DNA from: a virus
Length of the DNA stretch: 37,828 nt
Direction: 5' to 3' (one strand)
Virus record (IMG/VR): IMGVR_UViG_3300006853_000035
Location: 1-37,828 of that record
Position 1 is the stretch's first letter. Each line of letters opens with the position of its first letter. The notes under the pieces were generated by a model, which was not told where the DNA came from, ran no database searches, and saw only the letters and a list, made by a program, of their open reading frames with translations. Position numbers and translations under genes: made by a program. This document shows positions 893 through 37,828 of this stretch, piece after piece.

Positions 893-1254
893 GCCGCGTC
901 GTCCGTCTCGGGAAGCGACGATCGCAACAGGCCGCGCTCACGGGCAGCGGCGGGGGCGACGTGGTGAATCCAGTCGTGACACGCACCACAGACCGCGATC
1001 AGGTTCTCGAGTACGTCGGGTCCACCGCGCCCTGACGGCCAGACGTGGTGAGCGTGGTGGGCAGTGCCGACACACACGCCTTCCACGCGGGCTTCGCACC
1101 GCCACGTTGCGCGAGCCATGACTACCGGACGCAGTTCGTCCATCCGGTCGCGGTGGGTACGGCCCTTCGATCCGACGACGCGGAGACGCTTGCGACGCTT
1201 CGGCTTCCAGTTGCCGACATCCTTGAACCGGGTGACGACCTCGCGCGACGTCAT
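889..1254 (-). CDS. HNH endonuclease-like protein (121 aa)
   Basis: A basic N-terminus (KPKRRKRLRVVGSKGR) is followed by an HNH fold: CEARVEGVC, then AHHAHHVWPSGRGG, then DVLENLIAVCGACHDWIH. The two cysteine pairs fit the structural zinc and the HH plus the later N and H fit the beta-beta-alpha metal site. HNH nucleases of this size are common free-standing genes in actinophages, where they may nick DNA during replication, packaging or recombination. It sits between the WhiB-like gene and the zinc-ribbon gene, with ATGA overlap on its 3' side and its start next to the WhiB stop at 1251. Confidence 0.85.
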   Translation of the reverse strand: MTSREVVTRFKDVGNWKPKRRKRLRVVGSKGRTHRDRMDELRPVVMARATWRCEARVEGVCVGTAHHAHHVWPSGRGGPDVLENLIAVCGACHDWIHHVAPAAARERGLLRSSLPETDDAA

Positions 1255-1745
1255 GCCGCACCTCGCGCCTTGGCCTTGAGGCGTTCACGCTTGCGGTGCG
1301 CTGATTCTTTGCGGCGCTTCGCGGTGCCGCCGAGCCGCGCGGTGCGGCGGTACTGGCGCGGGCGCCGTTCGTTGTGCTCGCGCTGCTGCTGTAGGCGGCG
1401 GTCGTAGGCGCACAGATCGGAGCACGTCACCGGCACGGCGCCAGCGCGGCGAGGGGCCACGAACGTCGCAGCGCACACGACGCACGTCAGCTCTCGCCAT
1501 CCGACGTCGAACTGCGCCCGTTCCGTCGGAGTCATCCCGCCGCGGAACCCGTGCCTGTAGGAGAACCCGCGAGCGAACATCTCGCGTTCCTCGTCAAGCG
1601 CAGCGGCAAGACACGCCGCAACGACTGGACACCCGGCGCACGCTGCACGCGCGGCCGTGTACGGGCGACACCCGGAGCGCGATCCCTCCGGGTAGAAGTC
1701 GGTCACGGGCATGGACCGACACGCGGCCAGCTCACGCCAGCTCAC
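1251..1745 (-). CDS. WhiB-like iron-sulfur transcription factor with extra C-terminal metal knuckle
   Basis: WhiB-like proteins are actinobacterial redox-responsive regulators that carry a 4Fe-4S cluster and bind sigma factor. The four ligands are visible as C9, C36, C39 and C45 (ACAGC then five residues then C), followed by a variant of the G-[VI]-W-G-G turn, here GFRGG at 66-70, and the usual TPTER. The start is the GTG at 1745, overlapping the upstream stop (GTGA); the long upstream extension is a GC-rich shadow. Beyond residue 86 there is a second cysteine set, CVVC and CSDLC (88, 91, 108, 112), then a strongly basic tail of about 50 residues. In phages such proteins (for example in TM4) can repress host whiB genes and affect superinfection; that role here is inference. 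Confidence 0.85.
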   Translation of the reverse strand: MSWRELAACRSMPVTDFYPEGSRSGCRPYTAARAACAGCPVVAACLAAALDEEREMFARGFSYRHGFRGGMTPTERAQFDVGWRELTCVVCAATFVAPRRAGAVPVTCSDLCAYDRRLQQQREHNERRPRQYRRTARLGGTAKRRKESAHRKRERLKAKARGAA

Positions 1746-2026
1746 GCCGGCACCCCGCGTGCTGCTGCGGCGAGAGCGGACAGCGCGGGATGCGTAGCGT
1801 CCTTGCGGTTCGCCACGAGCGCGCCGAGCACCACGTCGTCGATCACGGCCTCGTCGTCTCGGTCCGCGAGGCGCACGGAGACCACCGCTCCGCCTGGGTG
1901 GAAGCGGACCGAACGCGTCAGGTCGCGCCTCCGCGGTGGGACGCGGAACGCCGGAACGTGCAGGCCGTTCGCGAGGCAGGCCGCGCCAACTCGGCGCGCT
2001 ACGGCAGAGAACTCGAGCGGCGTCAC
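1742..2026 (-). CDS. Hypothetical protein (94 aa)
   Basis: I place the start at the GTG at 2026, which overlaps the recT stop as GTGA; an ATG at 2056 would overlap recT by 34 bases. The product begins MTPLEFSAVARRVGAACLA and has a predicted beta-rich centre (GGAVVSVRLADRDDEAVIDD). It fits a small soluble protein made with the recombination pair. No family is recognised. Confidence 0.6.
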   Translation of the reverse strand: MTPLEFSAVARRVGAACLANGLHVPAFRVPPRRRDLTRSVRFHPGGAVVSVRLADRDDEAVIDDVVLGALVANRKDATHPALSALAAAARGVPA

Positions 2027-2973
2027 GTCGAGCCGATCGGGTGAGCGTCCAACCACACGGCGAGGCCGGCCGTCTGCTCGTCGGTGATGCCGACGAGGTC
2101 CATCGCGATGCCCGAGTCATTCAGGAACTCGTCGAGCTCGCGGTGCGCCTTCGTCGCCCCGGAGACCTTCGTGGCGCGGTACTCGGCGATGCGCTCCGGG
2201 ACGGACAACTCGTCGGGCTCCGGCTCGACGTCGATGACGTTGGGGTCGTCGGTACGGGCGATCGGATCGTCGGTGTCATCGGGCCGGAAGTCGAAGACCC
2301 CTTCGTCGGCGGCGAGGGCCGCGGCGAACTCGGGCGACATGGGCAGGTAGGGGGACATGGCGCGGATCACCGTCTTGCGCGACATCGGTCCGGGGTCCGT
2401 CACCCACGGCCCGGACGACTTCGCCTTGGATCGGTTCCGCCGCTCTGCGATCTCGGCCAAGTCCATGACGTGCAGCAGTTGGCCCCCACCGGGGAACTTG
2501 GCGATGCCGTAGTACGCAATCGTCTCGCCGCGGTCGTTGAGCTTGGGGACGTGGCGCAGGAACTCGGCCGACCCGTACTCGAACGCGAAGTCGTCCTTGG
2601 TCCTGACTTCGCGCGCCACGATGTCGAGCAGTTGGCCCGACCGGCGAGCGAGGTCGATGTAGCCGCGATAGCCGATGATGAGCGAGACTTCGCCGTTGTA
2701 GGGAACGAGATACGCCTGGCCGAGCGGTCCCGGTTCGAGGCCGAGCTGTGCGGCCTGCATCATCGAGCCGAGCAGCGACGACGGCGTGCAGGTGAGCAGC
2801 TTCTTGGTGCGCTTGCACTCGGTGAGGACGATCCGGGCGAACCGCTCGGTCGTGAGGTGGCGCGGGAGGGCGCGAGCGATCTCGTGCTTCTGCACGTCGA
2901 TCAGTTGAGCGACGGTGGGCTTGGGCTTCTCGACCTCGGTCGAGCTGGCGGCGACAGACTCCGCGAGGGTCAT
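2023..2973 (-). CDS. recT: RecT-family single-strand annealing protein
   Basis: RecT proteins bind single-stranded DNA and anneal complementary strands in phage recombination, working on ends made by a partner exonuclease. The 316-residue product shows the family core: LLTCTPSSLLGSMMQAAQ, then the LGLEPGPLGQAYLVPY segment, then EVSLIIGYRGYIDLARRSG, and later a VMDLAEIAERRNRSKA helix followed by GPWVTDPGPMSRKTV. The C-terminal 80 residues are acidic and then helical, as usual. The start ATG at 2973 overlaps the exonuclease stop (ATGA); the frame runs open a further 980 bases upstream without meaning. Its pairing with the YqaJ gene supports the call strongly. Confidence 0.95.
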   Translation of the reverse strand: MTLAESVAASSTEVEKPKPTVAQLIDVQKHEIARALPRHLTTERFARIVLTECKRTKKLLTCTPSSLLGSMMQAAQLGLEPGPLGQAYLVPYNGEVSLIIGYRGYIDLARRSGQLLDIVAREVRTKDDFAFEYGSAEFLRHVPKLNDRGETIAYYGIAKFPGGGQLLHVMDLAEIAERRNRSKAKSSGPWVTDPGPMSRKTVIRAMSPYLPMSPEFAAALAADEGVFDFRPDDTDDPIARTDDPNVIDVEPEPDELSVPERIAEYRATKVSGATKAHRELDEFLNDSGIAMDLVGITDEQTAGLAVWLDAHPIGST

Positions 2974-3872: not shown

Positions 3873-4033
3873 AGCATCTCTCCTTGGCCCGTGCACGCGG
3901 CGACCTCTGAGGCGAGGTACGAGTAGGCGTCGTGGACCTCCGGGGGGTCCGCATCGTCGAGCGTCGACGCGATGTAGTTCGCGAGCGCGTCGGCCAGCGC
4001 GAGCGGGAGGTCGACCGAGGTCGGATAGGCCAT
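3869..4033 (-). CDS. Small acidic hypothetical protein (54 aa)
   Basis: The ATG at 4033 has a good ribosome site (AAGGAG, seven bases away) and the stop overlaps the exonuclease start as GTGA, so the frame is very likely real. The product begins MAYPTSVDLPLALADALANY and is acidic and helical, ending GQGEML. Function unknown. It is the first gene after a strong hairpin (4057-4096), so it may head a separately controlled block with the exonuclease and recT. Confidence 0.7.
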   Translation of the reverse strand: MAYPTSVDLPLALADALANYIASTLDDADPPEVHDAYSYLASEVAACTGQGEML

Positions 4034-4056
4034 GCGTTACGCTCCTTGGTGTCGGG

Positions 4057-4096
4057 CGCTCCGACCGCTCTGCTTCCAAGGGCAGCGGTCGGAGCG
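4057..4096 (-). terminator. Strong 13-bp hairpin between early genes (attenuator-like)
   Basis: CGCTCCGACCGCT at 4057-4069 is perfectly complementary to 4084-4096, with a 14-base loop. It lies in one of the few gaps of the early operon, 71 bases between the 56-aa gene and the 54-aa gene. No T-run follows on either strand, so it may attenuate, stabilise or process the leftward message rather than end it fully. Confidence 0.5.
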
Positions 4097-4104
4097 TTCT
4101 CGCG

Positions 4105-4275
4105 TCAGGACTGGTCGTTCCGGAATCGGTGCGGGTACTTCTCGAGGTTCAACACCTGACCGGAGTCCGCGAGGAACCCGGCTCCGATCGCGACGCCGAA
4201 CAGGAACCGGCCGCGGTACTCGACCCGCACGCGCGGCAGAGGCTCCGGGGTGACGGGCCGACCGAGGGCGTTCAC
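4105..4275 (-). CDS. Small hypothetical protein (56 aa)
   Basis: The GTG at 4275 overlaps the stop of the preceding gene as GTGA. The product begins MNALGRPVTPEPLPRVRVEY, has a hydrophobic centre (GRFLFGVAIGAGFLADSG) too short and polar for a sure membrane helix, and ends KYPHRFRNDQS. No family is recognised. Confidence 0.6.
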   Translation of the reverse strand: MNALGRPVTPEPLPRVRVEYRGRFLFGVAIGAGFLADSGQVLNLEKYPHRFRNDQS

Positions 4276-4415
4276 GCGTCACCTTCGATGCGGACGTAGG
4301 CCGGTGCGGGCTTGCCGTGTTGACGGTTCGGACAGGACCCGTGGATCGCGGATGATCCGGGAAGAAGGCCGATGCGGTGACCGCACGCGGAGCAGGCGAA
4401 CTCTTGGAGGCTCAC
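4272..4415 (-). CDS. Small zinc-ribbon protein (47 aa)
   Basis: The GTG at 4415 overlaps the stop of the preceding gene (GTGA). The product contains FACSACGHRIGLLPG and then SCPNRQHGK, a CxxC plus further Cys and His that suit one zinc. Single zinc-ribbon peptides of this kind are common in phage early operons, mostly of unknown role. Confidence 0.6.
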   Translation of the reverse strand: MSLQEFACSACGHRIGLLPGSSAIHGSCPNRQHGKPAPAYVRIEGDA

Positions 4416-4594
4416 GCGAGCGGCGCGATCGTCTGTCCGGATGGGAGGCCCGAGAGACGCCACATGAAGTGCGCGTCGTCTGCGTGGGCGCGGAGGGCGG
4501 CGAGCTTGCGTTCGTCGAGCTGGCTGAACTTCGCCTCCAACGCGACTCTCAGGTTCGCGACTCCACGCAGGAACGCGTCGCGGTCGCCTCTCAC
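4412..4594 (-). CDS. Small hypothetical protein (60 aa)
   Basis: The ATG at 4594 overlaps the stop of the upstream membrane protein gene (ATGA). The product begins MRGDRDAFLRGVANLRVALE and reads as an amphipathic helical protein, with ALRAHADDAHFMWRLSG in the second half. No family is recognised. Confidence 0.6.
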   Translation of the reverse strand: MRGDRDAFLRGVANLRVALEAKFSQLDERKLAALRAHADDAHFMWRLSGLPSGQTIAPLA

Positions 4595-4929
4595 GACTGG
4601 TCCCTCGCGGCTTCTTCACGCGCGGCTTGGAGAGACCAGCGAGCGAGACGTGACCCCGGACGCATCGAGCGGAGCGGAACAGGAACGCTTCCGGTCGTAC
4701 CGTCCGGGGCCACATCGAGACCAGCCGTCCCCGACACGGCGGAAGGAGCCGTCGGGGGTTCGCTGGTCTCCACGGGGGCCAGCGGCGACGCACTCGCCTG
4801 CACCCCCGCGTTCTTGTCGCGGTGCAGCCACAGGAACCCGGCCGCGATGGCGAGCAGCGCGAGAACACCGAGTGCCGCGACGAGGAAGTCGCCCGACGTG
4901 TACTGCTCGGCGGTCACCGGCCACGCCAT
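4591..4929 (-). CDS. Small single-span membrane protein (112 aa)
   Basis: Residues about 13-34 (GDFLVAALGVLALLAIAAGF) form one clear membrane helix, followed by a Pro/Ser/Thr/Ala-rich linker and a basic helical end (RSMRPGSRLARWSLQAARE). It is the third of three tiny membrane proteins transcribed right after the HTH gene. Early phage membrane proteins sometimes act in superinfection exclusion or lysogen maintenance; nothing in the sequence proves that here. Confidence 0.65.
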   Translation of the reverse strand: MAWPVTAEQYTSGDFLVAALGVLALLAIAAGFLWLHRDKNAGVQASASPLAPVETSEPPTAPSAVSGTAGLDVAPDGTTGSVPVPLRSMRPGSRLARWSLQAAREEAARDQS

Positions 4930-5099
4930 TCGCGTCGAAGCTGCGCGCCCCGCTGCTCGCGTTCCACATCACGCCACCGACGCGAACGCCGGACCATCAA
5001 CGCGAAGTCGATCGCCGCGACAAGCACGATCCCCGCGAAGATCACCCACGCGAGCGCGCGTCCGAAGCCGGTACCGGGAGCAGTCGCCAGGAAGATCAC
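4914..5099 (-). CDS. Small membrane protein (61 aa)
   Basis: One membrane helix at about residues 14-35 (ALAWVIFAGIVLVAAIDFAL) is followed by a very basic cytoplasmic-type tail (RRSRRWRDVEREQRG). The start overlaps the stop of the upstream membrane gene (ATGA) and the 3' end overlaps the next membrane gene by 16 bases. Function unknown. Confidence 0.6.
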   Translation of the reverse strand: MIFLATAPGTGFGRALAWVIFAGIVLVAAIDFALMVRRSRRWRDVEREQRGAQLRREWRGR

Positions 5100-5278
5100 G
5101 ACTGCCTCGACCGCAACTCGGAGAGCACGTCGTGGGCGCCGTCACGAACACCACGGTCGTAGAAGGTCATCGCGCCGGCAGCGAACCCGAGGCCGATGAG
5201 GAGGAGCAGGAAGGCGTACCCGTACAGGAACGAGAACGCGCAGACGAGGGTCAGGGCGAGGAACCCGAGCACCTTCAC
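5096..5278 (-). CDS. Small membrane protein with two hydrophobic segments (60 aa)
   Basis: The first 40 residues are almost entirely hydrophobic (VLGFLALTLVCAFSFLYG, then FLLLLIGLGFAAGAM), suggesting a two-helix hairpin, followed by a short charged tail. The ATG at 5278 overlaps the stop of the HTH gene (ATGA), so it is the second gene of the early leftward transcript. Function unknown. Confidence 0.6.
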   Translation of the reverse strand: MKVLGFLALTLVCAFSFLYGYAFLLLLIGLGFAAGAMTFYDRGVRDGAHDVLSELRSRQS

Positions 5279-5469
5279 GACGCGGCCTCGGTGGGCTCAG
5301 GAGCCAGCAGCCGCTCGACCTCGACGCGGCGAACACGGATACCGCGACCCGGCGTCCGGACTGCGGTGACCATCTCGTCGCGCACCCAGCGGCGCACCGT
5401 TCCGGGATGGACCCGGTAGAGATCGGCGACTTCCTGCACCGTCAGGAGCTCGGGAGAGGCGTTGGTCAC
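5275..5469 (-). CDS. Excisionase/Cro-like helix-turn-helix protein (64 aa), leaderless start
   Basis: The product carries a MerR/excisionase-type HTH: LLTVQEVADLYRVHPGTV (residues 8-24), then RRWVRDEMVTAVRTPGRG and a basic wing. Such proteins direct integrase toward excision or act as the early antirepressor of the switch. I start it at the GTG at 5469, not the TTG at 5505: a promoter with its -10 at 5482-5477 lies inside that extension and would begin transcription at about 5470, so the message is probably leaderless, as is common in Actinobacteria. It is the first gene of the leftward early operon and divergent from the repressor. Confidence 0.8.
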   Translation of the reverse strand: MTNASPELLTVQEVADLYRVHPGTVRRWVRDEMVTAVRTPGRGIRVRRVEVERLLAPEPTEAAS

Positions 5470-5476
5470 GAGCGAG

Positions 5477-5505
5477 AGCGTAGAACATTCAACGCTCGGT
5501 TGCAA
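5477..5505 (-). promoter_or_regulatory. Early leftward promoter
   Basis: On the minus strand TTGCAA (5505-5500), a 17-base spacer and TACGCT (5482-5477) form a sigma70-type promoter. Its predicted start point falls on or next to the GTG of the HTH gene, giving a leaderless message. Hexamers and spacer length are identical to those of the rightward promoter. Confidence 0.7.
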
Positions 5506-5553
5506 GACCCTTCATCACCGACTTTCAGTGTTCATCCGGCCACGCCTTGCAAC
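5499..5553. promoter_or_regulatory. Candidate operator pair: inverted GTTGCAAG boxes
   Basis: GTTGCAAG at 5499-5506 and its exact reverse complement CTTGCAAC at 5546-5553 cover both -35 hexamers. TTGCAA is itself palindromic, so each box could be a half-site or a small operator for the repressor or the HTH protein. The 39 bases between contain a TTCATC direct repeat (5511 and 5531). Binding is inferred, not shown. Confidence 0.45.
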
Positions 5554-5575
5554 AGGAGCGCACAATCTGTACGCT
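5547..5575 (+). promoter_or_regulatory. Repressor promoter
   Basis: TTGCAA (5547-5552), a 17-base spacer and TACGCT (5570-5575) form a sigma70-type promoter with a start point near 5582. The leader of about 33 bases carries a purine-rich ribosome site (GGAGAGAGG) before the ATG at 5615. Confidence 0.7.
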
Positions 5576-5614
5576 CTCCGGAACAGAACCCCCCGCACGG
5601 TGGAGAGAGGAACG

Positions 5615-6022
5615 ATGACGACAGCACAGGTCCTCCGAGTTGAGTGGACGATGGCCGACCGAATCAGCAAGGTTCGGCGCACCCTGGATCTCGAGCAGGA
5701 GGAGTTCGGCCAGAAGGTCGCAGGCGTGGGCTCGGCAGCGGTCTCGAAGTGGGAGCGCGACCGCGGCAAGCCGTCAGACCCGATCGGCACAGCGCGTCGC
5801 ATCGAAGACCTCGCCATCGCCAGCGGGCACCCGGAGTTCACCGCAGCATGGGTGCTCGGACTCGACTCGTACGACGAACCACGAACCGGAGGCACAATGG
5901 GCATGTTCGACAAGATCAACGTCGAACGCCCGCAACGCTCGCGAGGCCAGAACCGCACCGGCGCAGGGCGCAACCGCGCTGGCGGAACCCGGCCCGCAGA
6001 ACGCGGCCAACGCGCTGCCTGA
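5615..6022 (+). CDS. XRE-family immunity repressor (135 aa)
   Basis: Residues about 14-65 form an HTH_XRE domain: ADRISKVRRTLDLEQEEFGQ, then the recognition segment VGSAAVSKWERDRGKPSD. Residues 66-90 are a short helical part, and from about 91 the protein turns into a basic, Arg/Gly-rich tail ending GQRAA. The start at 5615 has a ribosome site and the promoter upstream. The gene is directly followed by the integrase on the same strand and divergent from the HTH gene, the order seen in phages with integration-dependent immunity, where attP lies in the 3' part of the repressor gene and the longer viral form ends in an ssrA-like tag. Whether that holds here is inference. A second ATG (5897) has its own GGAGG site. 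Confidence 0.8.
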   Translation: MTTAQVLRVEWTMADRISKVRRTLDLEQEEFGQKVAGVGSAAVSKWERDRGKPSDPIGTARRIEDLAIASGHPEFTAAWVLGLDSYDEPRTGGTMGMFDKINVERPQRSRGQNRTGAGRNRAGGTRPAERGQRAA

Positions 6023-6061
6023 CCCGTCAGATCCAATCGACCCCTTGCACCCATCCCCACG

Positions 6062-6961
6062 GTGAGTGAACATTCGCCCACTCGGCACCGCACGCGAACA
6101 GGGCCGGGTGGGCGAGGCCCGATGGACGGAGCCGAGATCATTCGGCGGCACGTCGCGCACATGACAAGACGCGGCTTACGACCGACCACCGTCACCTACC
6201 GCATCCGCGCGCTACGACGGCTCGAGATCCACGCAAGTCGCTCCCTGCTCCACATCCACCTCGACGACCTCCGCGCCTACCTCGACGCGCTCCCCGACGC
6301 GGGCTACCGCTCCGCAGAGACCAGCCACTTCCGCGGGTTCTTCAAGTGGGCAACGATCGAGGGCTACGTCCACGAGGACCCGACATACCGGCTGGAACGC
6401 ACCCGGCGGCGGAAGTACCTGCCGAACCCGATGCCCGTCGATGACGTCGCTCGCGCGCTCCAGAACCCGCCCGCTCGGATCGCGAATGCGATGTGGCTCG
6501 CAGCGTACGCGGGTCTACGCGCCTGCGACCTCGCGCCGCTCCGGCGTGAACACCTGATGATCGACGCTCGGGTCCCGACCGTGTTCGTCGAGGAATCCAA
6601 GGGCGGGAAACCTCGCACCGTGCCGCTCGCGCCGCTGCTCGTCGAGGCCCTGCGACTCCCCCGCTCCGGGTGGCTGTTCCCCTACCACGACGGGCGCAGC
6701 GGACACATCACCGCCCACTACATGTCGATGCTCTGCAACGCCTACCTTCACGATCTCGGCATCGACCACACGCTCCACACGCTGCGACACCGGTTCATCA
6801 CGGACTGCTACGCCGTCGACAGGGATCTCGTCGTCACCCAGGAACTCGCCGGGCATGAGTCGATCGAGATGACCCGCCGCTACACCTGGACCGACCCTGG
6901 CGCCGCGGCGAACACTGTCGCTCAGCTCCCCGACCCACGGCGCGTGCTCACGTTCGCCTGA
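6062..6961 (+). CDS. int: Tyrosine integrase
   Basis: Tyrosine recombinases cut and rejoin attP and attB through a covalent Tyr link. The catalytic set is complete: R153 (GLRACDL), K180 or K183 (ESKGGKPRTVPL), H239 and R242 (HTLRHRF), H265 (AGHES) and Y274 (RRYTW). Residues about 22-118 form the core-binding SAM-like domain. At 299 residues it resembles XerC/D in size and shows no obvious separate arm-binding domain; the first 20 residues are merely basic. The GTG at 6062 is weakly supported, and the ATG at 6122 with GGGCGAGG upstream is an alternative start. It follows the repressor with a 39-base gap, so both are likely on one message. Confidence 0.93.
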   Translation: MSEHSPTRHRTRTGPGGRGPMDGAEIIRRHVAHMTRRGLRPTTVTYRIRALRRLEIHASRSLLHIHLDDLRAYLDALPDAGYRSAETSHFRGFFKWATIEGYVHEDPTYRLERTRRRKYLPNPMPVDDVARALQNPPARIANAMWLAAYAGLRACDLAPLRREHLMIDARVPTVFVEESKGGKPRTVPLAPLLVEALRLPRSGWLFPYHDGRSGHITAHYMSMLCNAYLHDLGIDHTLHTLRHRFITDCYAVDRDLVVTQELAGHESIEMTRRYTWTDPGAAANTVAQLPDPRRVLTFA

Positions 6962-6982
6962 TTCGGTGTACCCTCCGCGTCC

Positions 6983-7240
6983 ATGCAGAAGGGAGCGCTC
7001 ACCGAGACCGGCGCCCGGTTCTCGGACCGGAATCTCATCGCAGCCAACCTGTTCTCCGTCGCCCGCGTCACATGCAACATGCACGACGCACTTCTGATCG
7101 AACAGCGACGGACGAACCAGCTTCTCGAAACCCTGATCGAGCTCGGCGGGGGCGACGTGCCCGATGTTGAGCCAGCAGTTCTGGTGGAGCACCACTCGTT
7201 AGACCCGATGACCGGCGAACCCGTCCGGGATCGGGCCTGA
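6983..7240 (+). CDS. Hypothetical helical protein (85 aa)
   Basis: The product reads MQKGALTETGARFSDRNLIA at the start and has a coiled segment, LLIEQRRTNQLLETLIELGG, in the middle, a pattern often seen in small phage proteins. There is no ribosome site before the ATG at 6983, but TACCCT at 6969-6974 could be a -10 element giving a leaderless message; the later ATG at 7079 is another possible start. It follows int by 21 bases on the same strand. Function unknown. Confidence 0.5.
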   Translation: MQKGALTETGARFSDRNLIAANLFSVARVTCNMHDALLIEQRRTNQLLETLIELGGGDVPDVEPAVLVEHHSLDPMTGEPVRDRA

Positions 7241-7253
7241 GCAATCTCATCCG

Positions 7254-7349
7254 GTGAACGTTACGGTCCGTGATGCACTGCGCGACTCACACGGGAAGAC
7301 AACCCGGCTCCAGTACGCAGCCGCAGCGAAGAAGTGCCGAGCCACCTAA
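7254..7349 (+). CDS. Possible small basic peptide (31 aa)
   Basis: A GTG at 7254 opens a 31-codon frame (MNVTVRDALRDSHGKTTRLQ at the start) ending in TAA, with an even, coding-like composition and a basic end (AAAAKKCRAT). It lies between two other rightward frames and fills most of the 7241-7367 gap. No good ribosome site is seen, so support is weak. Confidence 0.3.
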   Translation: MNVTVRDALRDSHGKTTRLQYAAAAKKCRAT

Positions 7350-7367
7350 GACAATTCGAGGCTCGAA

Positions 7368-7508
7368 GTGCAAGCACTCTGGAACGGTTTCTGGTACTAC
7401 GGGATGTGGTTATTCCTGATCCCGTTCGGGGCAGGCGCAGGAGTGTGGATCGTTCGTCGAACGCGAAGAAGCCCCCGACCGAAGTCGGGGGCGCAACGCG
7501 TGAAGTGA
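7368..7508 (+). CDS. Possible small membrane protein (46 aa)
   Basis: A GTG at 7368 opens a frame beginning MQALWNGFWYYGMWLFLIPF, one convincing membrane helix that continues into GAGAGVWIVRRTRR, a positive-inside end. The last third of the frame runs through the hairpin that terminates the opposite operon. The clear membrane segment favours a real gene; the weak ribosome site does not. Confidence 0.4.
   Translation: MQALWNGFWYYGMWLFLIPFGAGAGVWIVRRTRRSPRPKSGAQRVK
7471..7492 (-). terminator. Terminator of the late leftward operon
   Basis: Read on the minus strand this is a perfect 9-bp GC stem, GCCCCCGAC and GTCGGGGGC, closed by a UUCG tetraloop and followed by TTCTTCG. It lies 25 bases beyond the last structural gene, between the converging transcription units. 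The plus strand forms the same stem with a CGAA loop but without a T-run. Confidence 0.85.
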
Positions 7509-7517
7509 CGGGCTAGG

Positions 7518-7883
7518 TCAGGACGCGGCGAGCACGACCCTGCGTACCTCGAACATACCCTCGAACACGCGGTCCAGAGACCCGGTCGCGCGGGCGGTGA
7601 GCTCGAACACGTAGCTCTGCCCGGCGACCACGCTGGACGCGGCAATCTCACCCGCGCTCCACGTCACCGTGACGTTCGGGACGCCGGTCGGTTCCTTCCC
7701 GGAACCTGCCGCGCCCGTGATGCCCGAGGCCTTCGTGAGCTTCGCGGCGGAACCCTTGTCGCCGATCAGGAGCGTGAACGTGTAGCCCGTCGAGAAGTCG
7801 ATGAGGGTGCCGTCGTCGTCTTCGAGCCAGAGCTTCGCGGCAGGACGATCCGCCGTGATGTGGTAGGCGAGCTTCTGGCTCAT
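7518..7883 (-). CDS. Phage structural protein, BppU-like beta domain (121 aa)
   Basis: Last gene of the late operon. The sequence is beta-rich: LAYHITADRPAAKLWLEDDD, then GYTFTLLIGDKGSAAKL, then a VTVTWSAGEIAASSVVAG turn and a C-terminal FELTARATGSLDRVFEG strand set. This layout resembles the N-terminal domains of baseplate-upper or fibre-associated proteins that describe a limited value range in tail-tip proteins. Position after the repeat-rich fibre protein supports a tail role. The ATG at 7883 overlaps the upstream stop (ATGA). Confidence 0.65.
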   Translation of the reverse strand: MSQKLAYHITADRPAAKLWLEDDDGTLIDFSTGYTFTLLIGDKGSAAKLTKASGITGAAGSGKEPTGVPNVTVTWSAGEIAASSVVAGQSYVFELTARATGSLDRVFEGMFEVRRVVLAAS

Positions 7884-9802: not shown

Positions 9803-10195
9803 CTACGCGTTGCCCGCGGTGATGACGAACGAACTCACCGCGACCGGGCCACCTGCGACGAGCGACGTGGTGTTGAGGTTCAGATCCGAGCCCGAGGTTC
9901 CCACGTTGCCGTCGATGACGAACGTCCCACCGGAGGTGACGACACGGAACCACGTCGCGGTGCCGGTCGCGTTGGCACTGGAGTCGTTCGTGATCGCGGA
10001 GAGCGTGAGGACACCCGACGACGCGCCAGGCGCAGCGGTGGCGGACAACGCCAGCTCCGCGAGGAGTGTCGTCGCCGAACCACCCGACGCGGGCCGCGAC
10101 CCGTCGTAGATCCGCAGCAGACCATTCGATCCGATCGCAGTAGTGATCGCGTCCATCTGCGCGTTGCGGACGGTCGTCGAAAGTGCGAGGGCCAT
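9803..10195 (-). CDS. Tail-associated structural protein (130 aa)
   Basis: The product begins MALALSTTVRNAQMDAITTA followed by GSNGLLRIYDGSRPASGG and LLAELALSATAAPGAS. This pattern is widespread among small phage proteins near tail fibre genes and suggests a beta-rich virion component. The ATG at 10195 overlaps the stop of a possible 19-aa frame (TGATG). Exact role unknown. Confidence 0.7.
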   Translation of the reverse strand: MALALSTTVRNAQMDAITTAIGSNGLLRIYDGSRPASGGSATTLLAELALSATAAPGASSGVLTLSAITNDSSANATGTATWFRVVTSGGTFVIDGNVGTSGSDLNLNTTSLVAGGPVAVSSFVITAGNA

Positions 10196-10267: not shown

Positions 10268-10516
10268 TCACAGCCGACCGGTAAGAAGGTTCGCGACGAA
10301 CAACACCATCGCGATGACCAGCCCACACAGCTGCACGATCTGCCGCGTCCGGTTCGCGTCCATCTTCGCGTCAAGGCTGTCGAAGCGATCCTTGGTGTCC
10401 GTGCGGAAGTCGGCGACGTCGCTGCGGATCTGCACTTGATCGTTGCGGATGTGCTCCACGCGTTCAGCGAGGACCGCAACCCGGACAGTCTCCGGCTCAT
10501 CACGCTTAGAGCCCAC
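10268..10516 (-). CDS. Coiled-coil membrane protein (82 aa)
   Basis: Residues about 10-60 form an amphipathic coil (AERVEHIRNDQVQIRSDVAD, then FRTDTKDRFDSLDAKMDANR) and residues 62-80 one membrane helix (LCGLVIAMVLFVANLL). The start is a GTG at 10516, overlapping the PAS gene by 11 bases. Proteins of this build often sit near phage lysis genes; the role is not known. Confidence 0.6.
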   Translation of the reverse strand: MGSKRDEPETVRVAVLAERVEHIRNDQVQIRSDVADFRTDTKDRFDSLDAKMDANRTRQIVQLCGLVIAMVLFVANLLTGRL

Positions 10517-10841
10517 GACGCTCGATCACAGCGATGAACAAGCGTGGGGTGGCGTCCAAGGCACACAGCGTCAAGTTGATCGGCCGTTCCATACCGTCTC
10601 GACCCATCGCCGACAGCGCACGACGTTGACCTGCCGCGGGTGACACGCCCGTCGCCACCGTCCGCTCGAACGATTCTTCGTGGGTTGCCCGGTACTTGTC
10701 GGGAACGAATGCGAGGATTGGTTGACCGATCAACTGTGCCGGGGTCCACCCGATCACGTCTTCGGCGCCTGGTGTCACGTACAGCACTTGCCCTTGGCTG
10801 GTCGCCCACACCAGACATGCCCGTGTATCCGCTCTGGTCAT
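10506..10841 (-). CDS. PAS-domain protein (111 aa)
   Basis: The whole protein is one PAS domain: VWATSQGQVLYVTPGAEDVI, then GWTPAQLIGQPILAFVPDKY, then RATHEESFERTVATG, then RRALSAMGRDGMERPINLTL and a final FIAVIERRGL strand. PAS domains sense small ligands, redox state or partners. Counted from the ATG at 10841 (ATGA with the upstream stop, CGGAG before it), H54, R60 and R74 have the same spacing as the heme ligand His and two Arg of the oxygen sensor FixL, but similar residues also occur in PAS domains without heme. There is no kinase or output domain, so it would have to act through a partner, perhaps one of the flanking membrane proteins. Confidence 0.85.
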   Translation of the reverse strand: MTRADTRACLVWATSQGQVLYVTPGAEDVIGWTPAQLIGQPILAFVPDKYRATHEESFERTVATGVSPAAGQRRALSAMGRDGMERPINLTLCALDATPRLFIAVIERRGL

Positions 10842-11020
10842 CTGCACTCCGGAAGGTCGCGAAGCAAGCGGGGATCGAACGACAGGGAGTAGTCGTGAAG
10901 ACGGGCGGAGAGAACGCGGTAGGCGTGCTCACACGACGGGGGTGCATCGCTGGAGAGAATCGCAACGATGACGATCACCGCGACCGCGAGGACAGCAAGG
11001 ACCGGACTCCACCGGTGCAT
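10838..11020 (-). CDS. Small membrane-anchored protein (60 aa)
   Basis: Residues 6-23 (PVLAVLAVAVIVIVAILS) form an N-terminal membrane anchor, with about 37 residues beyond it containing two cysteines (PSCEHAY and LPECR), which could pair outside the membrane. Its position between a coiled membrane protein and the PAS gene in the lysis neighbourhood recalls spanin-like or holin-accessory genes, but similarity is only in build. Confidence 0.6.
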   Translation of the reverse strand: MHRWSPVLAVLAVAVIVIVAILSSDAPPSCEHAYRVLSARLHDYSLSFDPRLLRDLPECR

Positions 11021-11021
11021 G

Positions 11022-11339
11022 TCATCGCCCCTGCATCAACGCGGTGAGCAGGATTCCCAACCCGAGCGCCATCAGCCCACCGACGCCGGCCGTGAGACGA
11101 TCCAGTTTCCGGTTGACTTTCTCATCTCGACCAGTGGACTTCGCGTCGAGCTCCGCGAGACGTTCACCCACCCTGGTCTCGAACCGAGAGCGCCAGTCAT
11201 CCATCTCGTCAGCGTGCTCACGCTGATACCGCTCCAGACGATCCAGGTCACTGACAGCAAGACTCACGCGCAGTGCATCCGTCCACGTTGAGTCCCGGTA
11301 CCACGCTTCGATCCGCGGCGCTTCTCTGCGTTCAGACAT
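11022..11339 (-). CDS. Coiled-coil protein with C-terminal membrane helix (105 aa)
   Basis: I use the ATG at 11339, four bases after the upstream stop, instead of the far upstream starts that overlap it. Residues about 28-80 are charged and helical (SDLDRLERYQREHADEMDDW and later DAKSTGRDEKVNRKLDRL), and residues 84-102 form a membrane helix (GGLMALGLGILLTALM). Build resembles accessory membrane proteins of phage lysis modules. Function unproven. Confidence 0.6.
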   Translation of the reverse strand: MSERREAPRIEAWYRDSTWTDALRVSLAVSDLDRLERYQREHADEMDDWRSRFETRVGERLAELDAKSTGRDEKVNRKLDRLTAGVGGLMALGLGILLTALMQGR

Positions 11340-11343
11340 CGCG

Positions 11344-11529
11344 TCACGCTGGCGGGATGCTGTCGAACCAACCGGCGGGCAACTTCCAGATCGGGTTCTG
11401 GAACGGCCAGTTCGTCCACCACGACAGCTCGTCCCATGACGTGACAGCGCGCCGCGTCTGCCACGAGTCCTGGTCGATGATCCACACCTGACCGTTGCCA
11501 GGGTCTCGCTGGTACAGCCCGATCGCCAT
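11344..11529 (-). CDS. Small Trp-rich hypothetical protein (61 aa)
   Basis: The product begins MAIGLYQRDPGNGQVWIIDQ and contains seven tryptophans (WWTNWPFQNPIWKLPAGW). The aromatic, beta-like composition is reminiscent of small proteins that bind glycans or other proteins, but no family is recognised. It follows a 12-aa mini-ORF with only one base between. Confidence 0.55.
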   Translation of the reverse strand: MAIGLYQRDPGNGQVWIIDQDSWQTRRAVTSWDELSWWTNWPFQNPIWKLPAGWFDSIPPA

Positions 11530-11689: not shown

Positions 11690-12409
11690 TCAGGCCGGTG
11701 CGCCTGCCCCAACGAGGGCGCGGTACTGCTCGACCGACAGAAACGCGGTCGGGATCGGACACGGCACCGACGGGTGCGTGTACTGCAACACCTCACTCGG
11801 CACGCCGAACTGTCCGTCGATCGCCCCGGCGAGCGCCCGGAGTGGACGGTCGTTCGGCGAGATCAAGTACGCCTTGCCCGACGCGACAGGCTGCGACTTC
11901 TCGTTCCAGATCATCTCGACAGCGCAGTACATGGTCTTCCCCTTCGGGGTCGGTGCGGGAGCGTCGACACTCGGGCGCGCCCCGGAGTTGAATCGGTCGA
12001 TGAAGTCGCGCAGCCCGTCACCAGGACACGCGGTCGCGACGTAGGACGAGTGCGGACGGAGCGGCCAGTCGAGGCCGTGCTGCTCGACGGCTTCCGTCGC
12101 GAAGTCCGCGATGGCCCGCTCGAGCTCGGGTGTGATCGCATCGTCGGTGCCGACCAGCGCGCAGATCGCACGCGAGCCGGGGTTGTAGTTGATGCCGTCC
12201 TGCACGCCGTTCGCGGCGGAGTCGCGGTCCCAGCCGCGGCCGATGAACCGTTCGCCGTGGATGCACGCCCCGAAGTTGTACGCACCGTCAGGGCCGTACT
12301 CGTTGGAGCGTTCCGACTTGATCCGTTCCCACTGCGCGGCGCAGCGCGCGTGGTCCGCGTTGCCCGCGGTCCCGACGACACCGAGGTAGTGGACCGACGG
12401 GTTCGCCAT
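11690..12409 (-). CDS. Endolysin, N-acetylmuramoyl-L-alanine amidase
   Basis: The 239-residue product carries an Amidase_2/PGRP-type zinc domain over residues about 5-140, which cuts the bond between muramic acid and the stem peptide. Visible zinc ligands are H7 (VHYLG), H120 (RPHSSYVAT) and C128 (ACPGDG); AYNFGACIHGERFIGRGW is the central family motif. A Pro-rich linker follows, and residues 155-239 form a separate C-terminal domain without a known match, perhaps wall binding. The ATG at 12409 overlaps the holin stop (TGATG). No LysB-type esterase gene is seen, which argues against a host with a mycolate layer. Confidence 0.9.
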   Translation of the reverse strand: MANPSVHYLGVVGTAGNADHARCAAQWERIKSERSNEYGPDGAYNFGACIHGERFIGRGWDRDSAANGVQDGINYNPGSRAICALVGTDDAITPELERAIADFATEAVEQHGLDWPLRPHSSYVATACPGDGLRDFIDRFNSGARPSVDAPAPTPKGKTMYCAVEMIWNEKSQPVASGKAYLISPNDRPLRALAGAIDGQFGVPSEVLQYTHPSVPCPIPTAFLSVEQYRALVGAGAPA

Positions 12410-12585
12410 CAGGTCTGGTTCGGGACCGTGTAGACGCCGAGCGCGATAGCGAGCGCGGTCGCGCCAGCGATCCACTCGGGACCCGTGATCGCCGACGGGT
12501 CCGACGCGACGACGAGCGTCGCCCAACCGATCGCGCCGACGACGATCGCGGTCACTGTCTTGCGGTACTTGGCAAGGACGGTCAT
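12409..12585 (-). CDS. Holin (58 aa)
   Basis: A short protein with two membrane helices, VTAIVVGAIGWATLVVAS and GPEWIAGATALAIALGVYTV, joined by a short DPSAIT turn and ending PNQT. This matches a small actinophage holin type that sits directly upstream of the endolysin. Holins time lysis by opening the cytoplasmic membrane. The ATG at 12585 has GGAG upstream and the stop overlaps the endolysin start. Confidence 0.82.
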   Translation of the reverse strand: MTVLAKYRKTVTAIVVGAIGWATLVVASDPSAITGPEWIAGATALAIALGVYTVPNQT

Positions 12586-24350: not shown

Positions 24351-24722
24351 TCAGTCGGCGTCGTCGAATGCGGTCCAGGCCGGTTGGGCCTTGGTCCCGC
24401 TGTTGCGATGCCACACGCCGGTGTCGAGTCGAACGACGAGGCTTCCCTTGCCGTAGACGCCTTCGCCCGTCGCGGGCGGTGAGCCGTCCGTGTAGTCGAC
24501 GGGCGCGCCTGCGGTGGTCGCGACGTACAGGTCGTTGCCGAGGTACAGCGGCGTGGACAGCGCGCCACTCACACCGGAAGCGACCGCGGCTGCCACGGTG
24601 GACGCGGACACCCACGACACGACACCGTCGACGACCGAGAGGTACTTCGCCTCGCCGTCCACGGCTGGCGTCGGGATGGATGCGAGTGCCGCGACGGTTG
24701 CCGCGTTGCGAGGTTCGGCCAT
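24351..24722 (-). CDS. Small head-block protein (123 aa)
   Basis: The product begins MAEPRNAATVAALASIPTPA and has DGVVSWVSASTVAAAVASGV in the middle and KGSLVVRLDTGVWHRNSGTK near the end, resembling short fibre-head or decoration modules. It lies between portal and scaffold genes. No certain family; a minor virion protein is the best guess. Confidence 0.6.
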   Translation of the reverse strand: MAEPRNAATVAALASIPTPAVDGEAKYLSVVDGVVSWVSASTVAAAVASGVSGALSTPLYLGNDLYVATTAGAPVDYTDGSPPATGEGVYGKGSLVVRLDTGVWHRNSGTKAQPAWTAFDDAD

Positions 24723-37286: not shown

Positions 37287-37798
37287 TGTCCCCATGCTCC
37301 TGGTCCGAGACGCGATGCACACTCCGTCTGGCCCTCACGCGTTGACGGGTCCAACCCGAGGCACGAACCCGAGACGTTGCCGTTCCAGGGCGACACCTCC
37401 GCGAAGTGACCAGCGTCAAGCTGGTAGAAGCCGAGGCACCCACGGCCACCACACCCCGTCGGGTTGTACGCGTCCCACCGGCAGCCCGACTCGCCCCGCG
37501 CGACGGACTCCGGGATGATCGGATTCGCGCACTCACCATCACCCGCGGCAGGAAGAGCCGGCGCGCTCGGTACCACAACCGGCGGGGCTGGTGTCTCGAT
37601 CTCTGGTGGGGCTACAGGCATGGGTTCCGGTTCCGGCGCAAGCGTCGTTGTTGTTGAACTTGACGTGGTGGTCGAACTCGACGTGGTGGGAGTCGCGACA
37701 GTCCGTTCAGACGACGGCTCGTGAACGGACACGACCGCGATGACAGCCACGCACACCACGCAACCGATGACGATGGACTTCCAAGGTGAAAAGGACAC
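37283..37798 (-). CDS. Membrane-anchored Rpf/transglycosylase-like enzyme (171 aa)
   Basis: Residues 8-25 are a membrane anchor or signal (SIVIGCVVCVAVIAVVSV). A Ser/Thr-rich stretch (36-52) and a Pro-rich linker lead to a C-terminal domain: ESVARGESGCRWDAYNPTGC, CLGFYQLDAGHFAEVSPW and ECASRLGPGAWGQ. The ARGESG glutamate (E103) and the GFYQ and GPGAWG segments fit lytic transglycosylases and resuscitation-promoting factor-like domains, which cut the glycan strand. Six or more cysteines suggest disulfides outside the cell. It lies in the early region, far from the holin-endolysin pair, so a role other than final lysis is possible. Confidence 0.8.
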   Translation of the reverse strand: MSFSPWKSIVIGCVVCVAVIAVVSVHEPSSERTVATPTTSSSTTTSSSTTTTLAPEPEPMPVAPPEIETPAPPVVVPSAPALPAAGDGECANPIIPESVARGESGCRWDAYNPTGCGGRGCLGFYQLDAGHFAEVSPWNGNVSGSCLGLDPSTREGQTECASRLGPGAWGQ

Positions 37799-37828
37799 GG
37801 GTCACGGCGACTCCTGAGAGACGATGGG

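Follow-up and report, generated by a model that had tools for sequence, protein, structure and literature searches.

Heme-PAS sensors and phage lysis proteins

The closest described relatives of the protein analysed here are heme-binding PAS proteins. FixL of S. meliloti and B. japonicum, its best match in both sequence and fold, carries the PAS domain together with a histidine kinase and a DxT linker. DosP, the oxygen sensor phosphodiesterase of E. coli, is a PAS-GGDEF-EAL enzyme, and FG214 is a one-component switch with an HTH and a distal His, in which heme redox can drive a monomer-dimer switch of the PAS domain (PDB 10jx; PMC13060918). According to a survey of 369,910 PAS domains, heme binding in the FixL/DosP cluster is determined mainly by a His on the F-alpha helix; this His is found in 60% of that cluster (>9,700 sequences), and in the 40% of sequences lacking it other ligands are possible (PMC10468136).

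Phage holin/antiholin pairs and XhlA-like accessory lysis proteins resemble, in topology and place, the membrane and coiled-coil neighbours of the gene described below. In the usual picture, holin build-up and membrane potential set the clock of lysis, and we know of no holin partner that is a cytosolic heme-type PAS protein. A phage-borne PAS protein linking a host-derived small molecule to lysis is VqmA of vibriophage VP882, but it is a PAS-HTH transcription factor that binds DPO rather than heme and acts on the lysogen via Qtip transcription (PMC8284805). Since small PAS-annotated proteins of uncultured Caudovirales are present in structure libraries, phage PAS proteins as such are not new. 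In the open-access literature we found no paper joining a PAS domain with a holin, endolysin or lysis cassette in such a role, and a FixL-type PAS in a lysis cassette appears to be undescribed so far in the literature searched.

The protein considered here shares with FixL the PAS fold, the F-alpha His, the equivalents of two pocket arginines, a glycine (G71) and the RDG turn; unlike FixL, it has neither the kinase nor the DxT linker, carries Ala in place of the Ile pair of the FG loop and is encoded in a phage late operon. DosP, a second-line match, has the same His but, in contrast to this protein, an enzyme domain. FG214 belongs to the same PAS group and shares the His as well, whereas its HTH and distal His have no counterpart here.

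A single-domain PAS protein in a phage late operon

The window is the whole stretch of DNA analysed, 37,828 nucleotides of the IMG/VR record IMGVR_UViG_3300006853_000035. Its terminase is 39% identical to that of Gordonia phage Eyre and an integrase is encoded at 6062-6961; the window phage is most likely a temperate actinophage. The original prediction had placed a stand-alone PAS domain among small membrane proteins downstream of the endolysin, and this arrangement was recovered with Pfam, PHROG, transmembrane (TM) segments and gene overlaps (Table 1). The product matches the Pfam PAS family (PF00989, E = 3.1e-8, 34.1 bits against a cut-off of 22.6) and the sensory box TIGR00229 (39 bits against 22.9), and no PHROG family matched it. 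Translation and Pfam agree on a single PAS domain without any other part: the protein stops after the PAS, with no kinase, cyclase or DNA-binding domain. With the NCBIfam FixL model it reaches 24.5 bits against a cut-off of 850, through the PAS part only, and thus falls outside the FixL protein family proper. The TGA stop of the preceding 60-aa membrane gene overlaps the PAS ATG (ATGA at 10841-10838) and the GTG start of the following 82-aa gene overlaps the PAS stop; that the PAS frame is overlapped at either end argues for a real gene.

Table 1. Coordinates of the PAS gene, its neighbours and two comparable loci in other phages
Feature	Position	Strand	Basis or remark
Virion structural protein downstream of lysis genes	9803..10195	(-)	phrog_3758, E 2.9e-33
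82-aa charged, probably coiled-coil protein, C-terminal TM	10268..10516	(-)	XhlA/holin-like by topology only
Stand-alone FixL-type PAS protein, 111 aa	10506..10841	(-)	ATG at 10841
R74 codon	10620-10622	(-)	in PAS gene
R60 codon	10662-10664	(-)	in PAS gene
H54 codon	10680-10682	(-)	in PAS gene
60-aa membrane protein, N-terminal TM	10838..11020	(-)	hydrophobic segment
105-aa charged, probably coiled-coil protein, C-terminal TM	11022..11339	(-)	holin-like by topology only
61-aa small ORF between endolysin and TM genes	11344..11529	(-)	ORF only
Endolysin	11690..12409	(-)	phrog_1493 lysis, E 4e-13
58-aa holin-like membrane protein directly before endolysin	12409..12585	(-)	one clear TM; phrog_17495 membrane protein, E 0.005
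184-aa protein, one TM segment + FixL-type PAS	L178:4779-5333	(+)	TM-anchored
TM/coiled-coil gene, PAS, endolysin in a row	L187:4513-5877	(+)	4-nt overlap, 11-nt gap

The late genes run in the order terminase, portal, capsid, tape measure, tail, 58-aa holin-like protein and endolysin, followed by the 61-aa ORF, the 105-aa and 60-aa TM proteins, the PAS, the 82-aa protein, the virion protein and the tail fibre. Endolysin and holin-like TM genes are adjacent and on the same strand, as in a lysis cassette; the holin roles of these membrane proteins are putative and follow from topology and place. The 82-aa protein had no family match in Pfam, PHROG or NCBIfam/TIGRFAM searches, and the other candidate membrane partners of the PAS are likewise without a family assignment. 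Because a virion protein gene lies downstream of the lysis genes, the cluster is part of the late operon. Because the PAS gene belongs to the late operon of tail and lysis genes and has neither the integrase nor a repressor beside it, the lysis-lysogeny choice, proposed earlier as one of two possible roles of the PAS protein, is unlikely to be the main one, and a role in lysis timing fits better.

Elsewhere in the window, a frame at 1251-2120 (-) carries a WhiB-type domain (PF02467, 45 bits) with CxxCx5C cysteines and is a second candidate redox/NO sensor of this phage; actinophages are known to carry WhiB genes (PMC8612146). A tRNA-Ser (CGA) gene lies at 24413-24507 (-), within the structural gene region.

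Relationship to FixL, DosP and FG214

Using phmmer against the PDB, we found FixL to be the best single-domain match of the window PAS (S. meliloti FixL, E = 2.7e-6). FG214 and DosP likewise rank high, and Drosophila PER entries outrank these heme PAS proteins only through the summing of two PAS domains. The alignment with S. meliloti FixL places H54 on the heme His, R60 on the propionate Arg (SmFixL R200/BjFixL R206) and R74 on the distal Arg (BjFixL R220). G71 aligns with BjFixL G217, and the RDG turn is also kept. All of these correspondences had been suggested in the original prediction and are reproduced here. The alignment was described there as gapless, which is correct for residues 54-83; over the full length one 1-residue gap is needed near residue 11. 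On the distal side, FixL Ile215, Leu236 and Ile238 correspond to A69, L90 and L92, that is, one small and two hydrophobic residues, and the adjacent Ile216 corresponds to A70.

When H54, R60 and R74 were masked as X, FixL kept its place as the top single-domain match in the PDB (E = 0.0013), so the kinship, which then holds weakly, does not depend on these three residues alone. The triad contributes about 8 bits of the FixL match, the remainder being general kinship. Profiles built from bacterial relatives matched 14 distinct FixL, DosP and 10jx sequences in the PDB at 60-90 bits, and all other chains stayed at or below 32 bits. As 10jx is the heme-binding PAS of FG214 (PMC13060918), every strong profile match is a proven heme PAS.

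The AlphaFold2 (AF2) model, a check proposed with the original prediction, has a pLDDT of 81.5 and puts H54 on the F-alpha helix; H54 and R60 both lie in a long helix (48-64), and strands 7-13, 18-22, 73-79, 85-95 and 101-108 form the five-stranded PAS sheet. By VIA-align, FixL chains take the first 13 places among its PDB matches (Z 14.9-16.3), and FG214 and DosP come next. The model was built with His-bearing relatives; a single-sequence AlphaFold2 model intended as an independent control was poor (pLDDT 42) and unusable. Judged by sequence profile and predicted fold, the window domain is a member of the FixL/DosP/FG214 heme-PAS group.

Membership in this group does not by itself prove heme binding, because 40% of the FixL cluster lacks the His. 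Of the two arginines, R60 is not needed for heme binding, since SmFixL R200 variants retain FixL-like heme spectra (PMC10765370). The pair R60/R74 is not kept in the other phage PAS proteins described below, being absent from most copies, and an oxygen-specific FixL pocket is consequently not established. One reading of a small late protein with the FixL heme-ligand His and no effector domain is a heme sink or redox protector, which would bind heme for buffering or for halting host respiration without signalling to a holin. We consider this the least probable of the explanations weighed here: signalling accounts better for both the PAS architecture and the coupling to membrane proteins, and no other heme-metabolism gene was noticed among the family matches of the window, the annotation of which is partial.

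Distribution of the window gene

The PAS gene of the window was found in one phage species only, as identical copies, with an identical stretch in IMGVR_UViG_3300050509_000221. No PAS counterpart was found in 49 sister records carrying the neighbouring phrog_3758 gene, many of which are fragments, implying that the protein is not needed for lysis as such. A tblastn search of 50,697 phage records with the window PAS and five other PAS queries gave zero matches. A made-up generic PAS consensus matched seven records in the same set. One is Sinorhizobium phage Phosso, whose 434-aa PAS protein is not encoded in an annotated lysis region; the remaining records hold a protein annotated for signal transduction or are short contigs lacking annotation. 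The best bacterial relatives are PAS domains of Burkholderiales at about 40% identity; no close donor was found among the bacterial genomes searched, where no actinobacterial genome served as a search centre.

With a copy carried by one phage species only and a third-position GC of 0.69, below that of most late genes of the window, the gene might be a recently acquired bystander that is functionless in this phage. This is very unlikely, as the reading frame is intact and tightly overlapped on both sides, the core fold residues are kept and a similar protein is under purifying selection in another phage lineage (see below).

In the record IMGVR_UViG_3300050509_000221 (82.7 kb), window bases 1-28409 occur at 100% identity next to 54 kb of different, partly related phage sequence; at 95-97% identity this record also matches both ends of the window, 1-203 and 37557-37828. 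This arrangement reflects either tandem prophages or a chimeric assembly.

PAS proteins near lysis genes in other phages

Scans of IMG/VR with FixL-type PAS profiles yielded seven contigs with a confirmed PAS relative besides the window phage. Two of these, the viral contigs L179 and L185, were excluded because they encode ordinary histidine kinases; L181 was rejected as not encoding a PAS protein. The other five of the seven, representing four lineages (L187; L183/L184; L178; L186), encode effector-less, His-bearing PAS domains near lysis-type genes. In all four, the PAS lies beside small membrane (holin-like) genes, with which it is start-stop overlapped, or is fused to TM segments, and in three of the four an endolysin is encoded within 3 kb. 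What constantly accompanies the phage PAS is a small membrane protein, translation-coupled or fused to it, whose cytosolic part is often charged and coiled-coil-like.

The clearest case for testing is L187, a 47-kb phage with certain terminase, portal and capsid genes. Its 134-aa PAS has an ATGA overlap with the gene of a 130-aa TM plus coiled-coil protein, and the endolysin (phrog_465, E = 4.6e-14) starts 11 bases past the PAS stop. The low-GC phages L183 and L184 (terminase phrog_2, E = 2e-31 or better) encode a 136-aa PAS that overlaps a TM protein gene by 11 nt, with an endolysin within 2 kb, GH19 in one phage and GH108 in the other. Their PAS genes differ by 28 synonymous changes and 1 non-synonymous change, and the PAS is under purifying selection in this lineage. 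In L178, a 68-kb phage with certain portal and terminase, the TM-anchored PAS gene has an ATGA overlap with a 112-aa gene weakly matching holin families in two libraries; no endolysin was identified near the PAS, and a CAP-domain protein is encoded about 4 kb upstream. L186, a 204-kb contig with a terminase, encodes a 277-aa protein in which the PAS is fused to three TM segments. Other TM genes lie alongside, and an amidase gene (phrog_1794, E = 1e-4) is found about 2.8 kb upstream. In L183 and L184 the block of TM protein and PAS (3996-7530) is conserved while the endolysin type switches between GH19 and GH108.

The His is kept in all five phage lineages, the window phage included. A profile of the six phage PAS sequences alone matched 14 heme-PAS sequences in the PDB at 47-76 bits, the next chain being at 29, and L183 PAS as sole query matched only heme PAS. 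The closest PDB match of the L183 and L187 PAS is FG214. In a tree of phage and bacterial PAS domains, one common phage origin was neither shown nor rejected (p-AU 0.18).

Whether such a recurrence could be expected from the way the contigs were found may be assessed by considering the searches. The contigs were picked by their PAS sequence, whatever its genomic surroundings. The motif that retrieved L183/L184 and L187 was a generic PAS pattern lacking the His, which means that their His was not forced by the search pattern; the confirmation step used a His-bearing query, favouring the same, FixL-type, cluster. In a rough gene call, 15 of 184 genes (8%) directly followed a small TM gene, which puts four independent cases by chance at about 4e-5, a rough estimate with no formal test.

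These results bear on two further explanations. The PAS might be a heme-free lysis modulator that binds membrane proteins and senses another small molecule or none, as a dimerisation or antiholin-like adaptor. The genomic evidence for this is identical to that for a heme-PAS, the distal pocket residues differ from those of FixL, and the His is lost in 40% of the FixL cluster (PMC10468136). We nevertheless regard it as rather unlikely, because the His is kept in five of five phage lineages and, in L183/L184 and L187, was not imposed by a search pattern lacking it. Alternatively, the protein could be a host-signalling decoy (moron), a free PAS that, late in infection, blocks or biases host sensor kinases or cyclases by pairing with their PAS domains, its lysis position being incidental. 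PAS domains form both homodimers and heterodimers, the protein has no effector domain, and it is absent from sister phages. The decoy is improbable all the same, since unrelated phages recurrently couple or fuse the PAS to small membrane proteins beside endolysins and late expression leaves little time for rewiring the host.

A possible role in lysis timing

The explanation that we favour, at a little under even chances, is a stand-alone heme-PAS sensor of the FixL/DosP type that is built into the phage lysis cassette and modulates lysis via a membrane partner. From the fold, the His, the location and the recurrence we infer heme binding, a gas or other ligand, the partner and the effect on lysis. 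The PAS protein would be produced at the same late stage as the tail and lysis proteins and would bind one heme b through its F-alpha residue H54. Binding of O2, NO or CO at the heme, or a change in its redox state, may then alter PAS dimerisation or an exposed surface. Without a kinase, cyclase or DNA-binding part, signalling like that of FixL, DosP or FG214 is impossible, and our working model is therefore that the signal passes by contact with a co-translated small membrane protein, either the 82-aa or 105-aa coiled-coil-plus-TM protein or the 60-aa one. Such contact would advance or delay holin triggering and, with it, the time of lysis. The simplest model is that a heme-PAS switch binds a holin-side protein and sets its triggering.

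More broadly, and more tentatively, unrelated phages of different hosts may have repeatedly built a heme gas/redox sensor, wired to the holin, into the lysis cassette, so that lysis timing follows O2, NO or respiration. If true, this would be a previously undescribed sensory input to the holin clock, with a dedicated sensor feeding environmental or metabolic state into it, and a minimal natural heme-PAS switch working without an effector domain. The idea is directly testable, as the proteins are small and soluble and the lysis cassette can be plasmid-borne.

The PAS proteins of L183 (4878-5288) and L187 (4902-5306) share a Met (MG-x-x-GM) near the position of the FixL distal Arg; this Met could conceivably be a distal ligand like that of DosP.
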